From contig NZ_JAOEGB010000025.1 of NCBI RefSeq assembly GCF_025420585.1, forward strand, positions 1 through 64,000: a DNA stretch of 64,000 nucleotides. Direction: 5' to 3'. The notes beneath the pieces were generated by a model. It saw only the letters and a program-made list of their open reading frames with translations, was not told the origin of the DNA and ran no database searches. Of this stretch, positions 25,272 to 59,334 are shown one piece after another; positions within the stretch are counted from its first letter, which is position 1; each line of letters starts with the position of its first letter. The position numbers were made by a program, and so were the translations under genes. This DNA comes from Planotetraspora sp. A-T 1434. GTDB lineage: Bacteria > Actinomycetota > Actinomycetes > Streptosporangiales > Streptosporangiaceae.

Positions 25272-25642
25272 GGAGTGCCAGACACGACCTAGGCAGGGGT
25301 GTCCCGCAGATCCCCGTTTTAGTGATCGTGATCATGCACGGACTCCCCGCGATTGCCTGTAGCCTGCGGCTCCGCCGTTCGTGATCATGCACGTGCATGG
25401 TCGCCGGCGGCCTTGGCGCAGGTCAGCGGCCCTTCGCGGAACCCGTGCATGATCACGCACAGAGAGGCAAGCTCCACCGCCCGGTCACGCCGCCGGCGCT
25501 GCCGCGGATCCGCGATCTTTGAAGATGATTACAGATAGCAAATGATTGGCTACACACTGTCATTCATCCGAGTATGCGGGCGTAGCCGCGCGATCACGTC
25601 CGGGAAGCTGGCCTCTGCCGTGTGAGCAGAGGGAGCGTGCTG
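25272..25642. other. Intergenic region after ispG with array a of the GTGATCATGCA element
   Basis: This is a noncoding stretch of about 370 bp. A small GACAC/GTGTC stem (25281-25303) follows ispG. Three element copies occupy 25328-25456. After about 25505 the sequence becomes A/T-richer (GATGATTACAGATAGCAAATG at 25523 onwards) and probably holds the promoter of the peptidase gene. Confidence 0.6.
25328..25456. repeat. GTGATCATGCACGG array a (3 cores)
   Basis: Forward cores begin at 25328 and 25381, exactly 53 bp apart; a reverse core CCGTGCATGATCAC occupies 25443-25456. The spacers share little sequence. Confidence 0.8.
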
Positions 25643-28345: not shown

Positions 28346-28712
28346 CGAGCTTCGCCATCAGGTGGTCGAGCTCGGCCGCCGGGTCGCCGGTAAGTCCGGC
28401 GTGGACCGGGCCGGTCTGCACGATCGTGCTCCTCGGCGCGGTGAGCCAGCGGAAGCGGCTGCCGAGTGACTCCTCGCTCAGGGGACCCGCCTCCTCGCCG
28501 CAGGCCATCTCGTAGGCCGCGAGCGCGTGCCGTACCCCGGGAAGATCGATCTGGCCGCCCAGTGCGAGCAGCCGCCCCTCGTCGAGCTCGACGCGGGCGC
28601 ACAGGTAGCCCCGAGGCTGGCAGTAGACGATGACCCCGGCGTTGACCAGCTCTCCGCGCTCCACGCTGGGCATGACACGGATGACGGCGTACTCGTACAC
28701 GTCCCGGCTCAT
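28326..28712 (-). CDS. DUF3037 family protein, partner of a HipA-like kinase
   Basis: A 128-residue protein begins MSRDVYEYAVIRVMPSVERG, then ELVNAGVIVYCQPRGYLCAR, the characteristic opening of DUF3037. It has no known activity. Its ATG overlaps the TGA of the HipA-like gene (ATGA), so the two are translationally coupled and probably made in matched amounts. This pair recurs in bacteria as far as I recall, but its role has not been worked out. Confidence 0.85.
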   Translation of the reverse strand: MSRDVYEYAVIRVMPSVERGELVNAGVIVYCQPRGYLCARVELDEGRLLALGGQIDLPGVRHALAAYEMACGEEAGPLSEESLGSRFRWLTAPRSTIVQTGPVHAGLTGDPAAELDHLMAKLVRTVRT

Positions 28713-39995: not shown

Positions 39996-42347
39996 ATGAG
40001 CGGGCTCTTGGGACGGCTTGGCGGCTGGTGCGCGCGGCACGGCCGAATCGTACTGGCACTGTGGGTGCTCGCGGCGGGCCTGCTGACAGCGGGCACACTG
40101 GTGTGGGGACGGCCGGTCAACAACAACGCCGCCATCCCCGGCACCGACGCGCAGCGGGCGCACGACCTGATGCGAGAAGGCTTCGGCCCAGGCTACGACG
40201 TCGGCGGCACCGTCCAGGTCGTCCTCTACGCCAAGGACGGTCCGCTGATCGCGGAGAACCGGATGCGCGCCGTCAAGCAGGCGATGGACGCCATGCGCCG
40301 GGTGCCCCACGTCTCCGAGGTGCAGACGCCGTACCGGACGGGCGGGATCGCGTCCAACCTGCGCATCGGTGTCATCACCGTGCAGCTGCAAGGGCAGGAC
40401 ACCGCCAAGCTCGCCGAGACCTCGCAGCAGCTCATCGCCGCGGCCAAGCCCGCGACCGACATCGGCATCGAGGCGGTGCCCGGCGACTCCGGCACGCCGG
40501 CCGACAAGGAGGTCAAGACCGGCCCAAGCGAGATCATCGGTGTGGTGGTGGCGCTGCTCGTGCTGCTCTTCGCATTCGGCACGCTCGTCGCGGCCCTCGT
40601 CCCGATCTTCACCGCACTGATCAGCATCGGCGTGGGGCTCGGCGTGATCGCGCTGCTCGGCCATGTCATCGACATGCCCAAGTCGGCGTCCATCATGGCC
40701 ACGATGATCGGCCTGGGCGTCGGGATCGACTACGCGCTGTTCCTGCTCTCCCGGCACCGCAAGCTGCTGGCCGACGGCGTGCCGGTGATGGAGGCGGTCC
40801 GGCGGACGGTGGCGAGCTCCGGCGGAGCGGTCCTCTTCGCGGGCGGCACGGTCGTCATCGCGCTGAGCGCGCTCATGTTCACCGGCTTCCCGATGCTGAG
40901 CACGCTCGGCTGGATCACCGGCATCTCCGTGGTGTGCGCCGTGCTCACGTCGATCACGCTGGTCCCCGCGCTGCTCGGCCTCCTCGGGCATCGGGTCAAC
41001 GCGCTGCGCGTCCCCTTCGTCGGGCGCGCCACCAAGCGGGACTCTCAGCGGGACTCTCAGCGGGACTCTCAGCGGGACTCTCAGCGGGACTCTCAGGGGG
41101 ATTCGGGGCGGGAGAACGGTCGGCAGGGTGAGGGCGCCACGGCGACGGGATGGGGGGCGCTCGGCAACTGGGTCGCCCGGCGGCCCTGGCGGGTGCTCAT
41201 CGTCACGGCGCTCGCCCTGGCGGCGCTCGCGGCCCCTGCGGCCGCGCTCAAACTGGGCCCGCTCGACGCCGGGTACGGCGACAAGGGCACCCCGTCGCGC
41301 CGCGCCTACGAGCTCATGGCCGTCGGCTTCGGCCCGGGAGCAAACGGCGCCCTCATCGTCGTCGCCGAGCTGGACCAGAAGATCGCCGACTCCACGCCCG
41401 CCGATCCCGTGGTGCAGGTGCTCAGGCAGCGGATCGAGCACATCGACGGCGTGGCCCACGTCGCCCCGCCCAAGGTCAACCAGACCGGCAGGTCGGTGCT
41501 CGTGGAGGTCGTGCCCGAATACGCGCCCAGCGACCCCCGGGCTCTGGACGTCGTGAAGCGGGTCCGGGCGATCGAGATGCCGGGGGTCCACGTCCATGTG
41601 GGCGGCAAGGTCGCCGGCCTCGCCGACGCCGGTGACCGCATCGTTGGCAGGACGCCGCTGGTCGTGGGCATCGTCGTGCTGCTCAGCGCGCTACTGCTGC
41701 TGTTCGCGTTCCGCGCGCCGGTCATCGCGGTCAAGGCCGCGCTGATGAACCTCGTCTCGCTGGGCGCGGCCTTCGGCGCGCTGGCCGTCGTGTTCTCGAT
41801 CGGTCTCGGGAGCCGCCTCGTCGGCATGGACCCCCCGCCGTCCGCCGCTGGGTCAACCCTCACCACGCTGTTCTTCTCCGTGCCGATCGAGACCTATGTC
41901 CCGCTGATGCTGTTCGCCGTGCTGTTCGGGCTGTCGATGGACTACGAGGTCTTCCTGCTCACCTCGGTACGGCAGGCCTACGCGCGGACCGGCGACAACC
42001 GGAGGTCCGTGGCCGAGGGGCTGGGCTCGACCGGCCGCGTCATCACGTCGGCCGCCTTGATCATGGTCGCGGTGTTCACGGCGTTCATCGCGTATCCCGA
42101 TCCCGTGGTCAAGGTCTTCGGCGTGGGGCTCGCCGTGGCCATCACCGTGGACGCCACGATCATCCGGGGTTTTCTCGTTCCGGCGACGATGGTGCTGCTC
42201 GGCAGGCTCAACTGGTGGATCCCGCGCTGGCTCGACCGCGTGTTGCCCAACCTCTCAATCGAAGGCAACGAGGAGGAGCACGAGCCCACGGCTCCCGCGA
42301 CCTCTTCGACCCCCGAACTCGTCACCGCCGCCCACCCCTCGGCGTGA
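39996..42347 (+). CDS. MMPL (RND superfamily) transporter
   Basis: A 783-residue membrane protein has two halves, each with one helix, a large outside loop and five helices. The conserved acidic helix motifs are GLGVGIDYALFLLSRHRKLL in the first half and GLSMDYEVFLLTSVRQAY in the second. MMPL proteins export lipids, siderophores or drugs by proton force. The cytoplasmic linker between halves carries five exact 12-bp repeats (CGGGACTCTCAG, 41037-41096) giving RDSQ x5, which is not part of the family. Its TGA stop lies inside the first core of element array b. Confidence 0.93.
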   Translation: MSGLLGRLGGWCARHGRIVLALWVLAAGLLTAGTLVWGRPVNNNAAIPGTDAQRAHDLMREGFGPGYDVGGTVQVVLYAKDGPLIAENRMRAVKQAMDAMRRVPHVSEVQTPYRTGGIASNLRIGVITVQLQGQDTAKLAETSQQLIAAAKPATDIGIEAVPGDSGTPADKEVKTGPSEIIGVVVALLVLLFAFGTLVAALVPIFTALISIGVGLGVIALLGHVIDMPKSASIMATMIGLGVGIDYALFLLSRHRKLLADGVPVMEAVRRTVASSGGAVLFAGGTVVIALSALMFTGFPMLSTLGWITGISVVCAVLTSITLVPALLGLLGHRVNALRVPFVGRATKRDSQRDSQRDSQRDSQRDSQGDSGRENGRQGEGATATGWGALGNWVARRPWRVLIVTALALAALAAPAAALKLGPLDAGYGDKGTPSRRAYELMAVGFGPGANGALIVVAELDQKIADSTPADPVVQVLRQRIEHIDGVAHVAPPKVNQTGRSVLVEVVPEYAPSDPRALDVVKRVRAIEMPGVHVHVGGKVAGLADAGDRIVGRTPLVVGIVVLLSALLLLFAFRAPVIAVKAALMNLVSLGAAFGALAVVFSIGLGSRLVGMDPPPSAAGSTLTTLFFSVPIETYVPLMLFAVLFGLSMDYEVFLLTSVRQAYARTGDNRRSVAEGLGSTGRVITSAALIMVAVFTAFIAYPDPVVKVFGVGLAVAITVDATIIRGFLVPATMVLLGRLNWWIPRWLDRVLPNLSIEGNEEEHEPTAPATSSTPELVTAAHPSA

Positions 42348-42460
42348 TCATGCACGGGTTCCCAGGGGTGCGGGGTGAGCTGGGCGGCAGCGGTGCGTGA
42401 TCATGCACGGGTTCCTGGTCAGGCCGGGTGAGCTGGGCGGCAGCGGTGCGTGATCATGCA
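42344..42460. repeat. GTGATCATGCACGG array b (3 cores)
   Basis: Forward cores begin at 42344, 42397 and 42450, giving two steps of exactly 53 bp. The spacers are related here (both end GTGAGCTGGGCGGCAGCGGT), so this is a recent duplication of the whole unit. The first core supplies the stop codon of the MMPL gene. The array lies between two convergent genes. Confidence 0.85.
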
Positions 42461-43748: not shown

Positions 43749-43992
43749 GTGATCATGCACGGGGTCCCGATAGTGCCGTGCGGCCTGCGCATCTTTGGGT
43801 GGTGATCATGCGCGAAGTCCTTCACGGTGTCTTCGGCCAGCGCGGACGGCATTCATGATCATGCGACCAGTGGAGATGCATGATCATCATGGATGAAATG
43901 CCTGCCCGAGAGGTGTGTGGGGGAGTCTGTGCATGATCACGCATGCTGTTTCGCCTGTTCAGCGCGCTGCGCGGGAAGCTGTGCATGATCAC
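43749..43992. repeat. GTGATCATGCACGG array c (6 cores, two facing halves)
   Basis: Forward cores begin at 43749, 43802 and 43855 (53-bp steps). Reverse cores end at 43887, 43940 and 43992 (steps of 53 and 52). The two halves face each other with 12 bp between, so the whole array has dyad symmetry. Spacers are mostly unlike one another, while the cores are 9-14 bp identical. Confidence 0.85.
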
Positions 43993-54255: not shown

Positions 54256-55005
54256 TCAGTAGCCGGCGCCGGTGAGGAGGCCGCCGTCGACGAGGACCTC
54301 GCTGCCCGTGCAGTACGAGGCGCGGTCGGAGGCCAGGAACGCCACGACGTGGGAGACCTCGACCGGCTTGGCGAATCGCTTCATCACCATGACCTTGAGG
54401 AACTGCTCGCCGTCCACCGCGGCCATCAACTCGGGGTCCGTCGCCATCGTGGTGTTGATCGCGCCCGGATGGACCGAGTTCACCCGGATCTTGAACCGGG
54501 CGAGCTCGCGGGCCGCCGCCTTGGTCACGCCCCGGACCCCGAACTTGGACGAGGCATAGGCCGCCATGCCCTCGGCCGCCATGAACCCCTCGATCGAGGA
54601 GATGTTCACGATCGAGCCGCGACCGGCCGCCTTCATCGGCTCGATCACCGACTTGACCCCCAGGAACGTGCCCTTGAGGTTGACGTCGATCACCCGCTCG
54701 AACTCCTCCAGCGTCATGTCGGCGATCCGGCGGTAGATGAGGATCCCGGCGTTGTTCACGAGCACGTCGAGCTTGCTGTACGTTTCGACGGCGGCGGCCA
54801 CGGCGCGCTCCCAGTCCGCCGGTCGCGTCACGTCGTGGTGCAGGTAGACGGCGCCGGTCTCCTCCGCCAAGTCCTTGCCCTCGTCGTCGAGCACGTCGCC
54901 GAAGACCACCCGCGCGCCCTCCTCCAGGAACAGCCGGACGTGGGACGCGCCCATGCCCCGGGCGCCACCCGTGATCAGCGCGACCTTGCCGTCAAGCATG
55001 CCCAT
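54256..55005 (-). CDS. Short-chain dehydrogenase resembling 3-alpha/20-beta-hydroxysteroid dehydrogenase
   Basis: A 249-residue SDR starts at 55005 with GGAGG five bases upstream. Motifs: TGGARGMGASHVRLFLEEGA (cofactor), VNNAGIL, NISSIEGFMAAEGMAAYASS with catalytic Ser and the Tyr-x3-Lys (YASSK), and VHPGAINT. GGARGMGASH and the SSIEG segment are those of FabG3-type hydroxysteroid dehydrogenases, consistent with a steroid or other polycyclic alcohol as substrate. Overlaps the upstream CoA ligase by 14 nt. Confidence 0.87.
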   Translation of the reverse strand: MGMLDGKVALITGGARGMGASHVRLFLEEGARVVFGDVLDDEGKDLAEETGAVYLHHDVTRPADWERAVAAAVETYSKLDVLVNNAGILIYRRIADMTLEEFERVIDVNLKGTFLGVKSVIEPMKAAGRGSIVNISSIEGFMAAEGMAAYASSKFGVRGVTKAAARELARFKIRVNSVHPGAINTTMATDPELMAAVDGEQFLKVMVMKRFAKPVEVSHVVAFLASDRASYCTGSEVLVDGGLLTGAGY

Positions 55006-57100
55006 GAGTGCCTCCACAGCGCTTTCCGGCCGCGACGGCGGTGGCCGCGGCTTCCATCGAACGGTAAACCGGGATGCCGGCCTTCGCCGCGATCGAGCGG
55101 ACCTCGTCCTCGACGCCCGGCGGGGCGCACTCGCCGTTCCTCGTCACCAGCGTGATCCTGATGGGCGAGATCGCCTCCTGCGCCTTGGCGAGGTGCCTCG
55201 CGTACTCGTACAGCGGTTCGGCCGCGCTGCCGTACGTGAAGAAGCTCTGCACGTTCACATGGGCCACCACATCGGGGTACGGCTGCCGCGAGACGATGGC
55301 GGAGACGGCCTGAGTGACGAGATCGGGACGGCCGCGTGGGCCGACGGGGATCTCCAGCGGGTTGGCCAGTGAGCTTCCGGCGCCGATCCCGATCGCGGTC
55401 AGAGCGTCGCGGGCGGCGCCGGGAAGGGCGCCCAGCGAGAGCCCGGCGCGGTCGAACACGTCCGCCGCCAGCACGCTCACCCCGCCGCTCGGCCCGATGA
55501 CCAGGACGTCTTCCCCGTTCCCGGCGCTCTCCAGCCGAGAGGCGTGGGCCTGGAAGAACGCCAGGGCGCCGATCAGGTCGTCCTGGCTGGTCACGAGCGA
55601 GGCGCCGGTCTGGGTGGCGAGGGCCTGCCAGACCCGCGCGTCGCTGACCATGCCGCCCGTGTGCGAGGCGGCGGCCCTGCGGCCCTGCGCGCTTCGCCCG
55701 CCCACCAGCATGACGACGGGCAGCCGGCCGCGGACGTCGAGGAGCGCCTGGAAGAGCGCACGCCCGTCGCGCGGGTCCTCGAGGTAGAGGCCGACGGCCC
55801 GGGTCTCCCGGTCGGTCGCGAGCCAACGAAGCAGCTCGGCGGGGGTGACGTCGGACGCGTTGCCCACTGTGGCCACGCGGCTGAACGCCAGGCCGCGCCG
55901 CTCCCCCACCTTGATCACTTCACCGGCCAGGCCGCCGCTCTGGGAGATCAGCGCGATGTGCCCGGAAGGCCCCTGGCCGCCGCCGACGAACGTCTGGCCG
56001 CCGCGCGGACTGTAGACGCCCATGCAGTTGGGCCCGAGCAGCCGGGTGCCGGGCGGCAGGGCGTCGACCAGGTCGGCCTCCAGTTCGGGGTGGCCCATCT
56101 CGCCGAAGCCGCCGCTCATCACCTGGACGTACGGCACGCCTGCGGCCTGCCGTACGACATCGGCGCAGCGGGCGGCGGGCACGGCGACGAGGGCGTAGTC
56201 GACCGCGGCCTCGGCCAGCGTGGGCACGCAGGGCACTCCGTCGATCTCCGCGGCCGACGGATGCACGGCGACCAGCGGAAGGCCGGTGGTCTTGTAGAAC
56301 TCCAGGAACATGTTCCCGAAGTTGGGCCGGCTGGTGGAGGCCCCCACGACTGCCACCGCCCGAGGCTCGAACAGCTTCGTGAAGTCCCGCCCCCCTCCGC
56401 CGTGATCATGCAGAGGTTCCCGTGCATGCCCTGTGAGCAGCGGATTCGTCGTTCGTGATCGTGCAGTGGGCAGATGTCGGGCATCGACGGCGATCACGCC
56501 GTTCTCGCCCGCGATGATCGGGTTGAGCTCGAACTCTCCGAGATCCAGGCTCTCCCACAGCCCGCCGGTGCCGCCGAGCCGTACGAGCAGCGTGACGAGG
56601 GCGTCCACGTCCACCGCCGGTCGTCCGCGGTAGCCGTACAGCAGGGGAGCGCCCCGCAACGACCCCAGCATCTCGCGCGCGTCGGCCTCGGAGATCGGGC
56701 AGAGCCGCAGCGCGGTGTCGTTCAGCGCTTCGGTCCAAACGCCGCCGAGCCCCACCACGATGACCGGGCCGAAGCCGGCGTCGTGCACCAGCCCGGCGAT
56801 CACCTCGAGTCCCGGAGCCGTCTGCTCCTCCACCAGGAAGCCCTCGGCCCGGGACCCCAGCCGTGCCGCCATCTCGCCCGCCGCCCGTGCCGCCTCGGCC
56901 GGGGATTCGAGACCGAGCCGTACGGCTCCCGCGTCCGACTTGTGCACCAGGTCGGGCCCATATGCCTTGACCACGAGGGGCGGCCGGAGCTCCCTGGCGA
57001 TCGCCGTCACGTCGTCGGCAAAGGTCGTGGCGGCGCCACGGGGGACCGCGATCCCGGCGTCGCGGAGCAGCGACTTGACCTGGTGTTCGGGGAGGTGCAC
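54992..57100 (-). CDS. Acetate--CoA ligase family (ADP-forming acyl-CoA synthetase) with in-frame repeat insert
   Basis: A 702-residue protein. The ATP-grasp domain is first (about 1-210: PPLVVKAYGPDLVHKSDAGA, VGLGGVWTEALND), then a CoA-binding domain from about 245 (LFEPRAVAVVGASTSRPNFG) and succinyl-CoA-ligase-like domains with LLGPNCMGVYSPRG, LISQSGGLAGEVIKV and the catalytic His in SHTGGM. It would activate a carboxylate with ATP and CoA. The linker at residues about 212-233 is encoded by two element cores (array d) and is not found in normal members. GTG start with AAGGGA 6 nt upstream. Confidence 0.87.
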   Translation of the reverse strand: MHLPEHQVKSLLRDAGIAVPRGAATTFADDVTAIARELRPPLVVKAYGPDLVHKSDAGAVRLGLESPAEAARAAGEMAARLGSRAEGFLVEEQTAPGLEVIAGLVHDAGFGPVIVVGLGGVWTEALNDTALRLCPISEADAREMLGSLRGAPLLYGYRGRPAVDVDALVTLLVRLGGTGGLWESLDLGEFELNPIIAGENGVIAVDARHLPTARSRTTNPLLTGHAREPLHDHGGGGRDFTKLFEPRAVAVVGASTSRPNFGNMFLEFYKTTGLPLVAVHPSAAEIDGVPCVPTLAEAAVDYALVAVPAARCADVVRQAAGVPYVQVMSGGFGEMGHPELEADLVDALPPGTRLLGPNCMGVYSPRGGQTFVGGGQGPSGHIALISQSGGLAGEVIKVGERRGLAFSRVATVGNASDVTPAELLRWLATDRETRAVGLYLEDPRDGRALFQALLDVRGRLPVVMLVGGRSAQGRRAAASHTGGMVSDARVWQALATQTGASLVTSQDDLIGALAFFQAHASRLESAGNGEDVLVIGPSGGVSVLAADVFDRAGLSLGALPGAARDALTAIGIGAGSSLANPLEIPVGPRGRPDLVTQAVSAIVSRQPYPDVVAHVNVQSFFTYGSAAEPLYEYARHLAKAQEAISPIRITLVTRNGECAPPGVEDEVRSIAAKAGIPVYRSMEAAATAVAAGKRCGGTHGHA
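56402..56466. repeat. GTGATCATGCA array d (2 cores) inside the CoA ligase gene
   Basis: Cores begin at 56402 (GTGATCATGCAGAGG) and 56455 (GTGATCGTGCAG, one change), again 53 bp apart. They and their spacer are translated on the minus strand as part of the inter-domain linker (TARSRTTNPLLTGHAREPLH) without a stop or frameshift. Confidence 0.75.
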
Positions 57101-57136: not shown

Positions 57137-57252
57137 TGCATGATCACGAACCGGTTCACGGCTGGTCAGGCGGTGTGTGAGGGAGGGTGTGCATGATCAC
57201 GAACCGGTTTGCGGCTGGTCAGGGGCCTGCGGAGGAAGGTGTGCATGATCAC
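57137..57252. repeat. GTGATCATGCA array e (3 cores)
   Basis: Reverse cores TGCATGATCAC lie at 57137-57147, 57190-57200 and 57242-57252 (steps of 53 and 52). The spacers are related and each starts GAACCGGTTT or GAACCGGTTC. The last core supplies the TGA stop of the acyl-CoA ligase gene. The array sits between two operon genes. Confidence 0.85.
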
Positions 57253-58949
57253 GGCGAGGGGGGTGGGGGGAGGAGGGGGGCGTAGCGGTCGCGGATCTCG
57301 CGGCGGAGGAGCTTGCCGGGGCCGCCGGAGGCGTCCTGGAAGTGGGGCAACTCCTCGGTGACGACGATGTGGTCCGGGCGCTGCCGCTCGGGCAGCGACT
57401 CCGCCAGGGCGAGGGCCAGCTTGGCGGGGTCGACCGAATGTCCCGAACGGGAGACGACGGCCAGGATGACCCGCTGCTCCACCGCGTCCTCGCCTTCGAC
57501 GTGCGCCGGCACACCCACAGCGCCCGCCTCGGCCACGTCCTCGACGGCGGTCGCGGCCTCCTCGATGACCGAGGGTTGCGTCCATTGGCCGCCTTTGAGG
57601 ATCGAGTCCTCCCGGCGGCCGAGGACGTTCAGGACACCGTCTTCGGAGAGGGTGCCGAGATCGCCGCCGACGTACCAGTCGCCGCGCAGCACCTCGGCCG
57701 TCTTGTCCGGCAGCCTGTCGTAGCCGGCCATCCGGTGGGGCCCCGCGAGGTTGATCTCGCCGACCTGGCCGACGACCCGGTTGCCCGACGGGTCGGTGAT
57801 CCGTACGGCACAGCCGGTCCGGGCCCGGCCCGACGAGCCGAGCGGGGTCGAGCCGTCGTCCACCCGGCCGACGCAGGTGTACGGGGCCTCCGTCTGCCCG
57901 TAGTAGGAGTACACCCCCGCGTCGGGTAAGCGCTCCTTGATGCGGCCGAGCAGGGAGCCCGTCAGCGGCTCGCCGCCCAGCATGATCACCCGGAGGGGCG
58001 ACAGGTCGGCGGAGGCGTGGTCGTCGGAGCCCAGCAACGCGGCGTAGAACGACGGGATCTGCGAGACGTGGGAGACCCGCTCGCGCGGCACCACGCGGAG
58101 GAAGTTCGCCGGGCCCCAGTCCTGCTCCAGGACCAGGCGCATTCCCGCGTAGAGCGCGGGGCCGACGATCGCGGGGAAGCCGATGCCCCAGATGATCGCG
58201 CCGGTGCCGAACACCGAGTCGGGGGAACGCGGCACGTCGAGCCAGATCTGGGCGGTGGCCAGCGACGACGCGTGGGTGTGGATCACCGCCTTGGGCAGCC
58301 CCGTCGTGCCCGAGGTGTAGTAGAGCGCGAGCGGGTCGTCACCCGCGCCGCCCACCGGAGGCTCGGCGTCGCTCGACTCGGATTCGCTCAGATCGGCCAC
58401 GTCGATCCAGGTCGTCACGCCAGGAAGGCCGGGCCTGATCTGCCCGGCGACCTCTTCCACCGTGGCGTCGTAGAGGAAGGTGTCCGCCCCCGAGTGCTCC
58501 ACGACCGCGCGTAGCGTCTCGACCGGCCAGTAGGGATTGAGCGCTGCGGTCACCGCGCCCAGCTTCGCCTGCGCGAGGTAGACCTCCGCCACCTTCAGCG
58601 TCTCGTTCAGCAGCGCGGCGACCCGCTGCCCCGGCCGGACCCCCGCCGCTGCCAGGGCGTTCGCCCGCCTGTTGACGAGCCGGTTGAGCTCGTCGTAGGT
58701 GAAGCTCCGCTTGCCGCAGTAGGTCAGAGCGACCTTGTCCGGCGTCCGCAGGGCGTTCGCGGTCAGGACGGCGTACGCGTAGTTGCCATAGGGCGACGCC
58801 GCACTGGACGACACGGCGCTGGACGGCAGGAGGCTGGACGGCAGGAGGCTGGACGACACGGGGCTGGACGACACGGGGCTGGACGACACGGGGCTGGACG
58901 ATGCCGGGCTGGAGGATGCGGGGCTGGACGGCAGGGGGCTGGTCGACAC
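57249..58949 (-). CDS. AMP-dependent acyl-CoA synthetase with a Ser/Pro-rich N-terminal repeat
   Basis: A 566-residue adenylate-forming enzyme. The ATP motif is ALYYTSGTTGLPKAVIHTHA, followed by VYSYYGQTEAPYTCVGRVDD, the Asp in DWYVGGDLGTLSEDGVLNVL, GRREDSILKGGQW, and the C-terminal Lys in ASGGPGKLLRREIRDRYAPL. The first 50 residues are Ser/Pro/Ala/Val repeats from 15-bp DNA units (CTGGACGACACGGGG on the plus strand, 58850-58900). The GTG at 58949 with GGGAGG five bases upstream makes this tail part of the protein. It activates a carboxylic acid to acyl-CoA. It lies 13 bp after the VOC gene. Confidence 0.88.
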   Translation of the reverse strand: MSTSPLPSSPASSSPASSSPVSSSPVSSSPVSSSLLPSSLLPSSAVSSSAASPYGNYAYAVLTANALRTPDKVALTYCGKRSFTYDELNRLVNRRANALAAAGVRPGQRVAALLNETLKVAEVYLAQAKLGAVTAALNPYWPVETLRAVVEHSGADTFLYDATVEEVAGQIRPGLPGVTTWIDVADLSESESSDAEPPVGGAGDDPLALYYTSGTTGLPKAVIHTHASSLATAQIWLDVPRSPDSVFGTGAIIWGIGFPAIVGPALYAGMRLVLEQDWGPANFLRVVPRERVSHVSQIPSFYAALLGSDDHASADLSPLRVIMLGGEPLTGSLLGRIKERLPDAGVYSYYGQTEAPYTCVGRVDDGSTPLGSSGRARTGCAVRITDPSGNRVVGQVGEINLAGPHRMAGYDRLPDKTAEVLRGDWYVGGDLGTLSEDGVLNVLGRREDSILKGGQWTQPSVIEEAATAVEDVAEAGAVGVPAHVEGEDAVEQRVILAVVSRSGHSVDPAKLALALAESLPERQRPDHIVVTEELPHFQDASGGPGKLLRREIRDRYAPLLPPPPSP

Positions 58950-58962
58950 AGGGGCCTCCCGG

Positions 58963-59334
58963 CTAGAGGGACGAGTAGAGGATGAAGACGTTCCCCGAGG
59001 GGTCGCGCAGCACGGCCCGGACCTCGTGCGGCCCCGCCTCCGGCTCGCGCACCACGACCGCCCCCGTCTCGGTCAGGTCCCGTACGGCCGCCGCCACGTC
59101 GGCGACCTTGTACGACGGGGCGGTGGCCGTGCAGGACACCTGCTCCTCGGGGGCGACGAGCGCGACGGTGACGCCGCCGCCGTCGAGGGCCGCGAAGCGG
59201 TCGCCGTCCCGGAACTTCACGGGCAGCCCCAGGCCGTCCGAATAGAACGCGACGGCCTTGTCCAGGTCGTCCACCGGGATCAACACGTTGCCGACCTTCT
59301 GGACGTGCTTGCTGGTGTGCTGGCTGGCGGTCAT
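58963..59334 (-). CDS. VOC (glyoxalase/bleomycin-resistance) family protein
   Basis: A 123-residue single VOC domain starts at the ATG at 59334, which overlaps the stop of the OB-fold gene (ATGA). VGNVLIPVDDLDKAVAFYSD, GLGLPVKFRDGDRFAALDGG, and the closing LRDPSGNVFILYSSL carry the beta-alpha-beta-beta-beta pattern; Glu in EVRAVLRDP may be a metal ligand. The reaction is unknown; in CoA operons, VOC proteins can be epimerases or dioxygenases. Confidence 0.85.
   Translation of the reverse strand: MTASQHTSKHVQKVGNVLIPVDDLDKAVAFYSDGLGLPVKFRDGDRFAALDGGGVTVALVAPEEQVSCTATAPSYKVADVAAAVRDLTETGAVVVREPEAGPHEVRAVLRDPSGNVFILYSSL

Follow-up and report, generated by a model that had tools for sequence, protein, structure and literature searches.

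The window, that is, the whole stretch of 64,000 nucleotides analysed here, contains the gene of an ADP-forming acyl-CoA synthetase (hereafter, the ligase) in which two cores of a short repeat are embedded; this is one of five arrays of the repeat in the window. The features discussed below, several of which were compared with Streptosporangiaceae bacterium NEAU-GS5, are as follows, with the source of each assignment in brackets.

54992..57100, minus strand: ADP-forming acyl-CoA synthetase, 702 aa (ORF, Pfam, orthologues)
56375..56476, minus strand: codons of the interdomain linker, residues 209-242 (orthologue comparison, AlphaFold)
56455..56465, minus strand: core 1, TGCACGATCAC, codons A-R-S-R (core scan)
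56402..56412, minus strand: core 2, TGCATGATCAC, codons L-H-D-H (core scan)
57137..57252, plus strand: array of three cores, between the two ligase genes (core scan, NEAU-GS5 comparison)
25328..25456, both orientations (- - +): related array in an intergenic gap (core scan; absent from the colinear NEAU-GS5 site)
42344..42460, minus strand: related three-core array (core scan; absent from NEAU-GS5)
43749..43992, both orientations (- - / + + +): related inverted array (core scan; absent from NEAU-GS5)

The sequence-only reading had placed two cores 53 bp apart in the ligase gene and had described them as translated without a stop between the ATP-grasp and CoA-binding domains, and both statements hold. 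Core 2 starts 53 bp after the start of core 1 and is preceded by the GGAAC flank typical of the repeat family. Both cores are on the same strand as the ligase, in frame and free of stops, and their translation corresponds to residues 212-233 (22 residues), between the Pfam domains ATP-grasp_5 (residues 2-208) and CoA_binding_2 (247-363), the latter followed by Succ_CoA_lig (380-515). In core 1, a T>C substitution at 56461 eliminates the in-frame TGA of the consensus core, so that GCA TGA reads GCA CGA in the window. Only 2 of 142 array cores, core 1 among them, carry this stop-removing substitution, a pattern that would fit selection for an open frame, albeit at a single site.

The nearest solved structure to the ligase is 9y43, an ADP-forming 3-hydroxypropionate--CoA ligase, and in structure 4xyl the CoA-binding (alpha) and ATP-grasp (beta) portions form separate chains. 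In the AlphaFold2 model of the ligase, generated from a 27-sequence alignment (mean pLDDT 88.4), residues 214-237 are the sole internal segment with pLDDT below 50 and are predicted to be disordered; according to this model, the element-encoded residues are a disordered hinge. Among orthologues, the linker is hypervariable in both sequence and length. Measured from DAR to LFEP, its median length in 87 element-free orthologues is 24 aa (range 5-104), with 22% of these linkers reaching at least 34 aa; the linker of the window ligase, at 34 aa, is about 10 aa above this median. The notion of about 22 extra residues thus stands for what the element encodes, but not for the net length of the linker. 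Likewise, alignment of homologues, proposed as a check for a gap at residues 212-233, yielded 87 other orthologues without cores in the linker, but no clean gap of 22 residues. A clean empty site for the linker array was not obtained, orthologue linkers being hypervariable, and a clean 22-residue insertion was rejected given this hypervariability and the net gain of about 10 aa. The predicted disorder and the core-free orthologues support the earlier proposal that the insertion is tolerated at a flexible linker.

Across the window, 18 core matches with at most one mismatch were detected, compared to 0.6 expected. Two of the arrays outside the ligase gene abut coding sequences directly: the outer core of the array upstream of the ligase, 57242-57252, contains the TGA stop of an acyl-CoA synthetase ORF (57249-58949, minus strand), and the first core of the array at 42344..42460 bears the stop codon of ORF 39996-42347 (plus strand). 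In the inverted array at 43749..43992, an additional third minus-strand core, mismatched at two positions, lies at about 43852. A separate 15-bp tandem repeat, at 58776-58968, codes for an N-terminus rich in Ser and Pro in the acyl-CoA synthetase ORF 57249-58949.

In this soil actinobacterium, the repeat is a genome-wide family. Exact copies of TGCATGATCAC number 824 in the 7.78-Mb window genome (G000), whereas the reversed-pattern control yields 0. The family consists of an 11-bp core, TGCAWGATCAC, carried on a 52/53-bp unit; GGAA precedes the core by eight bases, and a GCAGGTC motif, weaker than GGAA, follows about 24 bases after the core start. A 464-kb sample of this genome, made up of the window and 400 kb of contig C1, was examined: of the 98 distances between same-strand neighbouring cores, 90 are 51-54 bp, and nearly all exact cores belong to arrays. 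An arm usually comprises about three cores, and a minus-strand arm is often followed by a plus-strand arm, but many elements are single-armed. Adjacent units can reach 83-100% identity, and the spacers of certain distant arrays are much more similar than the average for unrelated units (mean identity 48%, sd 8%). Arm junctions in the 464-kb sample are not phased at 10.5 bp; together with the units of 23-59 bp in other families (see below), this speaks against helical phasing as a general rule.

With gene positions taken from our own codon-usage gene calls rather than an annotation, 38 arrays were assigned to 11 convergent gaps, 24 tandem gaps, 1 divergent gap and 2 locations inside genes. Divergent gaps are thus occupied by 1 of 38 arrays, compared to 47 of 208 gaps in the background. 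Eight cores carry the stop codon of a gene, and 8 of 157 cores lie inside genes. As judged from the array table, the arrays adjoin gene 3' ends and are mostly intergenic, asymmetric sites with a consistent orientation relative to the genes. In tandem contexts, some arms are found before gene starts, which speaks against a pure terminator, which would not need them. Apart from the ligase linker, a three-core array lies inside a predicted gene in contig C1 (array 239904-240020; gene 239714-241192, minus strand), near its 3' end.

Of 342 genomes from the same taxonomic family, 14, representing 5 genera, have the two-core 53-bp pattern, as do 3 genomes of other families (class sample of 395). Genomes G434, G093 and G493, from other families, contain the same 11-bp core in arrays with units of 23-59 bp, some of them with inverted arms (loci L277-L291). 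The base at the variable core position differs among genomes: the T and A cores number 824 and 4 in the window genome, and 90 and 122 in NEAU-GS5. Three further genomes, G050, G025 and G048, contain 225, 84 and 28 core copies, respectively; among the copies listed for them, many are arranged not in 53-bp arrays but as close inverted pairs spaced by about 28-38 bp. The repeat family is highly conserved at the core, with dialects between genera, and occurs in four or more taxonomic families of a single class. Separately, the window genome has rpoB only in short fragments, at the ends of contigs C61 and C71 (possibly two copies collapsed in assembly), and NEAU-GS5 has two full rpoB copies.

Constraint on the core is apparent in the sister species G260 and G261, where five arrays occupy matching places in 200 kb. 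Differences amount to 3.4% in cores, 38% in spacers and 21% in flanks (core versus spacer, P about 1e-51); cores were marked at no more than one mismatch, which biases the core difference downward, though the gap is large. The number of units varies between these genomes, and one of six arrays, present in G261, is lacking in G260. Judged by these comparisons, the arrays are both copied and conserved at the core. The proposal that the element is mobile or was copied is in line with the near-identical adjacent units, with the spacers shared between arrays and with the absence of three window arrays from NEAU-GS5.

NEAU-GS5 (G051; locus L184) belongs to another genus and is colinear with the whole window; its ligase is about 71% identical to the window ligase. 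The linker of this ligase contains three TGCAAGATCAC cores (the A variant), which match the window cores in strand and frame; the first and second are spaced by 53 bp, and the A core introduces no stop in the linker frame. The colinear block has only two arrays, the linker array and one at the site upstream of the ligase, where a single core is the counterpart of array 57137..57252. Three of the five window arrays are missing from the region, indicating that arrays come and go; at these three empty sites, divergence of the flanks is too great for junctions, terminal repeats or a target-site duplication to be recognised. Because the arm of NEAU-GS5 agrees with that of the window in linker, strand and frame, the insertion is most likely older than the divergence of the two genera, and we consider it highly probable that the linker arm is old, shared between the genera and tolerated. 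A recent insertion in the lineage of the window is made unlikely by the same arm, so the dated event of the sequence-only reading, understood as recent, is not supported: NEAU-GS5 has its own core variant at this very place. Spacer identity between the linker arms of the two genomes is about 52% (counted by eye), no higher than between unrelated units, and the orthology of the arms therefore rests on position, strand and frame. Such low identity would be expected if spacers saturate, and spacer DNA by itself cannot prove that the linker array predates the genus split.

Could the linker be a hotspot in which the two lineages each gained an arm independently? The extreme permissiveness of the linker (5-104 aa), the spacers, no closer between the two arms than between unrelated units, and the support of just 67 for grouping the window and NEAU-GS5 sequences as sisters in the ligase tree all leave room for two landings. 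Such coincidence is nevertheless improbable, considering that strand, frame and the 53-bp unit are the same in both linkers, that a second array is common to both genomes at the upstream site and that the ligase linkers of the core-rich genomes G025, G050 and G048 have no cores. As for the nature of the arm, a selfish, MITE- or REP-like transposing element that landed in the linker by chance would account for the gain and loss of arrays among relatives (NEAU-GS5 lacks 3 of 5 window arrays, and G260 lacks 1 of 6) and for the spacers common to some distant arrays. However, most arrays share the conserved motifs alone (mean spacer identity 48%), and their cores are conserved while spacers drift, unlike decaying selfish copies. 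Moreover, the REP-associated Y1 transposase (Y1_Tnp, PF01797) was not found in the array-rich genomes G000, G022, G260 and G261, which rules out a RAYT-driven REP, lacking its transposase in the richest genomes. We regard a selfish element as unlikely on the whole. Carriage of the arrays on phages or plasmids was also rejected: the sole hit in the scan of viral sequences was an unrelated, AT-rich contig that has an identical tandem unit, and plasmid sequences yielded nothing beyond weak partial matches.

A DNA-uptake-type watermark, spread via the preference of a competence receptor, with genus dialects and with intragenic copies where the frame allows, shares many features with the arrays at the level of sequence. 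These include an 11-mer in hundreds of copies, T or A core dialects by genome, inverted pairs in G025, G048 and G050, which represent other genera, and a TGA in one of the frames, which restricts the use of the word inside genes, as has been noted for the DUS of Neisseria (PMC3630211). An uptake word fits poorly, however, with the confinement of nearly all exact cores in the 464-kb sample to fixed 52/53-bp arrays with conserved GGAA and GCAGGTC flanks and with the small number of cores inside genes (8 of 157), and seems to us a rather improbable explanation. Least probable of all is an element that acts as RNA, for example as a hairpin terminator or a processing site, with the linker copy as a stray: gene-end position and the possible core-core pairing between inverted arms are compatible with it, but single units fold no better than shuffled sequence on either strand (mean z -0.02 and -0.26), ruling out a single-unit RNA hairpin, many elements have one arm only and the arrays have no Rfam match. 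Rfam gave a single match in the window, to an L31-Actinobacteria ribosomal protein leader at 28374-28414 (minus strand).

The lack of folding, the lack of a RAYT, the constraint on the core and the dialects differing at matching sites favour a DNA-binding protein instead. In the explanation that we prefer, the linker pair would be one short arm of a gene-end repeat family that normally occurs as single or inverted arms. The arm would have entered the ligase hinge before the two genera split and would have stayed because the hinge tolerates almost any sequence, with a T>C change in core 1 at the point at which the consensus would give TGA. The arrays would act as double-stranded DNA, namely, as rows of sites for a putative sequence-specific DNA-binding protein; those at gene ends may limit transcriptional read-through in the manner of a roadblock or an insulator, and the arm inside the ligase gene may be a tolerated passenger. 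Taken whole, this explanation has, in our estimate, an even chance of being correct. Of its parts, the role of the arrays as binding sites is somewhat probable, whereas the roadblock, suggested by the gene-end position in analogy with stoperators (PMC9283540), is a tentative and rather unlikely proposition.

No description of the arrays was found in the open-access literature, searched by sequence and by keyword, or in Rfam, and the family appears to be undescribed in both. It is conceivable, although we lean against it, that several families of Actinomycetes possess an undescribed class of DNA-binding-site arrays with a shared 11-bp core and genus variants, which marks gene ends and is read by a putative protein, the linker representing a regulatory site kept inside a coding sequence by one-base stop avoidance. 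Identification of the array-reading protein would open a gene-end marking system in high-GC actinobacteria, and the linker copy provides a position-matched pair of genera for comparing the core variant and the reading frame at one site.

Several known repeat systems resemble the arrays in part. MIRU are actinobacterial repeats that overlap codons at gene boundaries and are inserted at start codons (PMC12548453); by this description, the arrays are similar in being actinobacterial and overlapping codons at gene boundaries, but they abut gene 3' ends and stop codons rather than start codons, with 8 cores carrying a stop. The DUS of Neisseriaceae are very abundant 10-12-mers with lineage dialects, inverted gene-end pairs and UGA in one frame (PMC3630211). 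The core likewise has hundreds of exact copies, lineage dialects, inverted pairs and TGA in one frame, but the arrays differ in their fixed period, several cores per arm and extra conserved flanks. The stoperators of cluster A mycobacteriophages are numerous asymmetric sites of 11-13 bp located in short intergenic spaces and oriented to transcription (PMC9283540). Array cores are similarly asymmetric, mostly intergenic and consistently oriented relative to genes, but the arrays are chromosomal and regular, and their binding protein is putative. Finally, the absorption of a repeat in frame by a protein is already known from Rickettsia, where the palindromic elements (RPEs), of about 150 bp, lie in frame in many metabolic genes and are translated as extra residues (PMC10969869). 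The arrays differ from RPEs in their 53-bp unit with an 11-bp core and in their location mainly outside genes, 2 of 38 being intragenic; the linker arm, like an RPE, is a repeat placed in frame in a protein-coding gene and translated.
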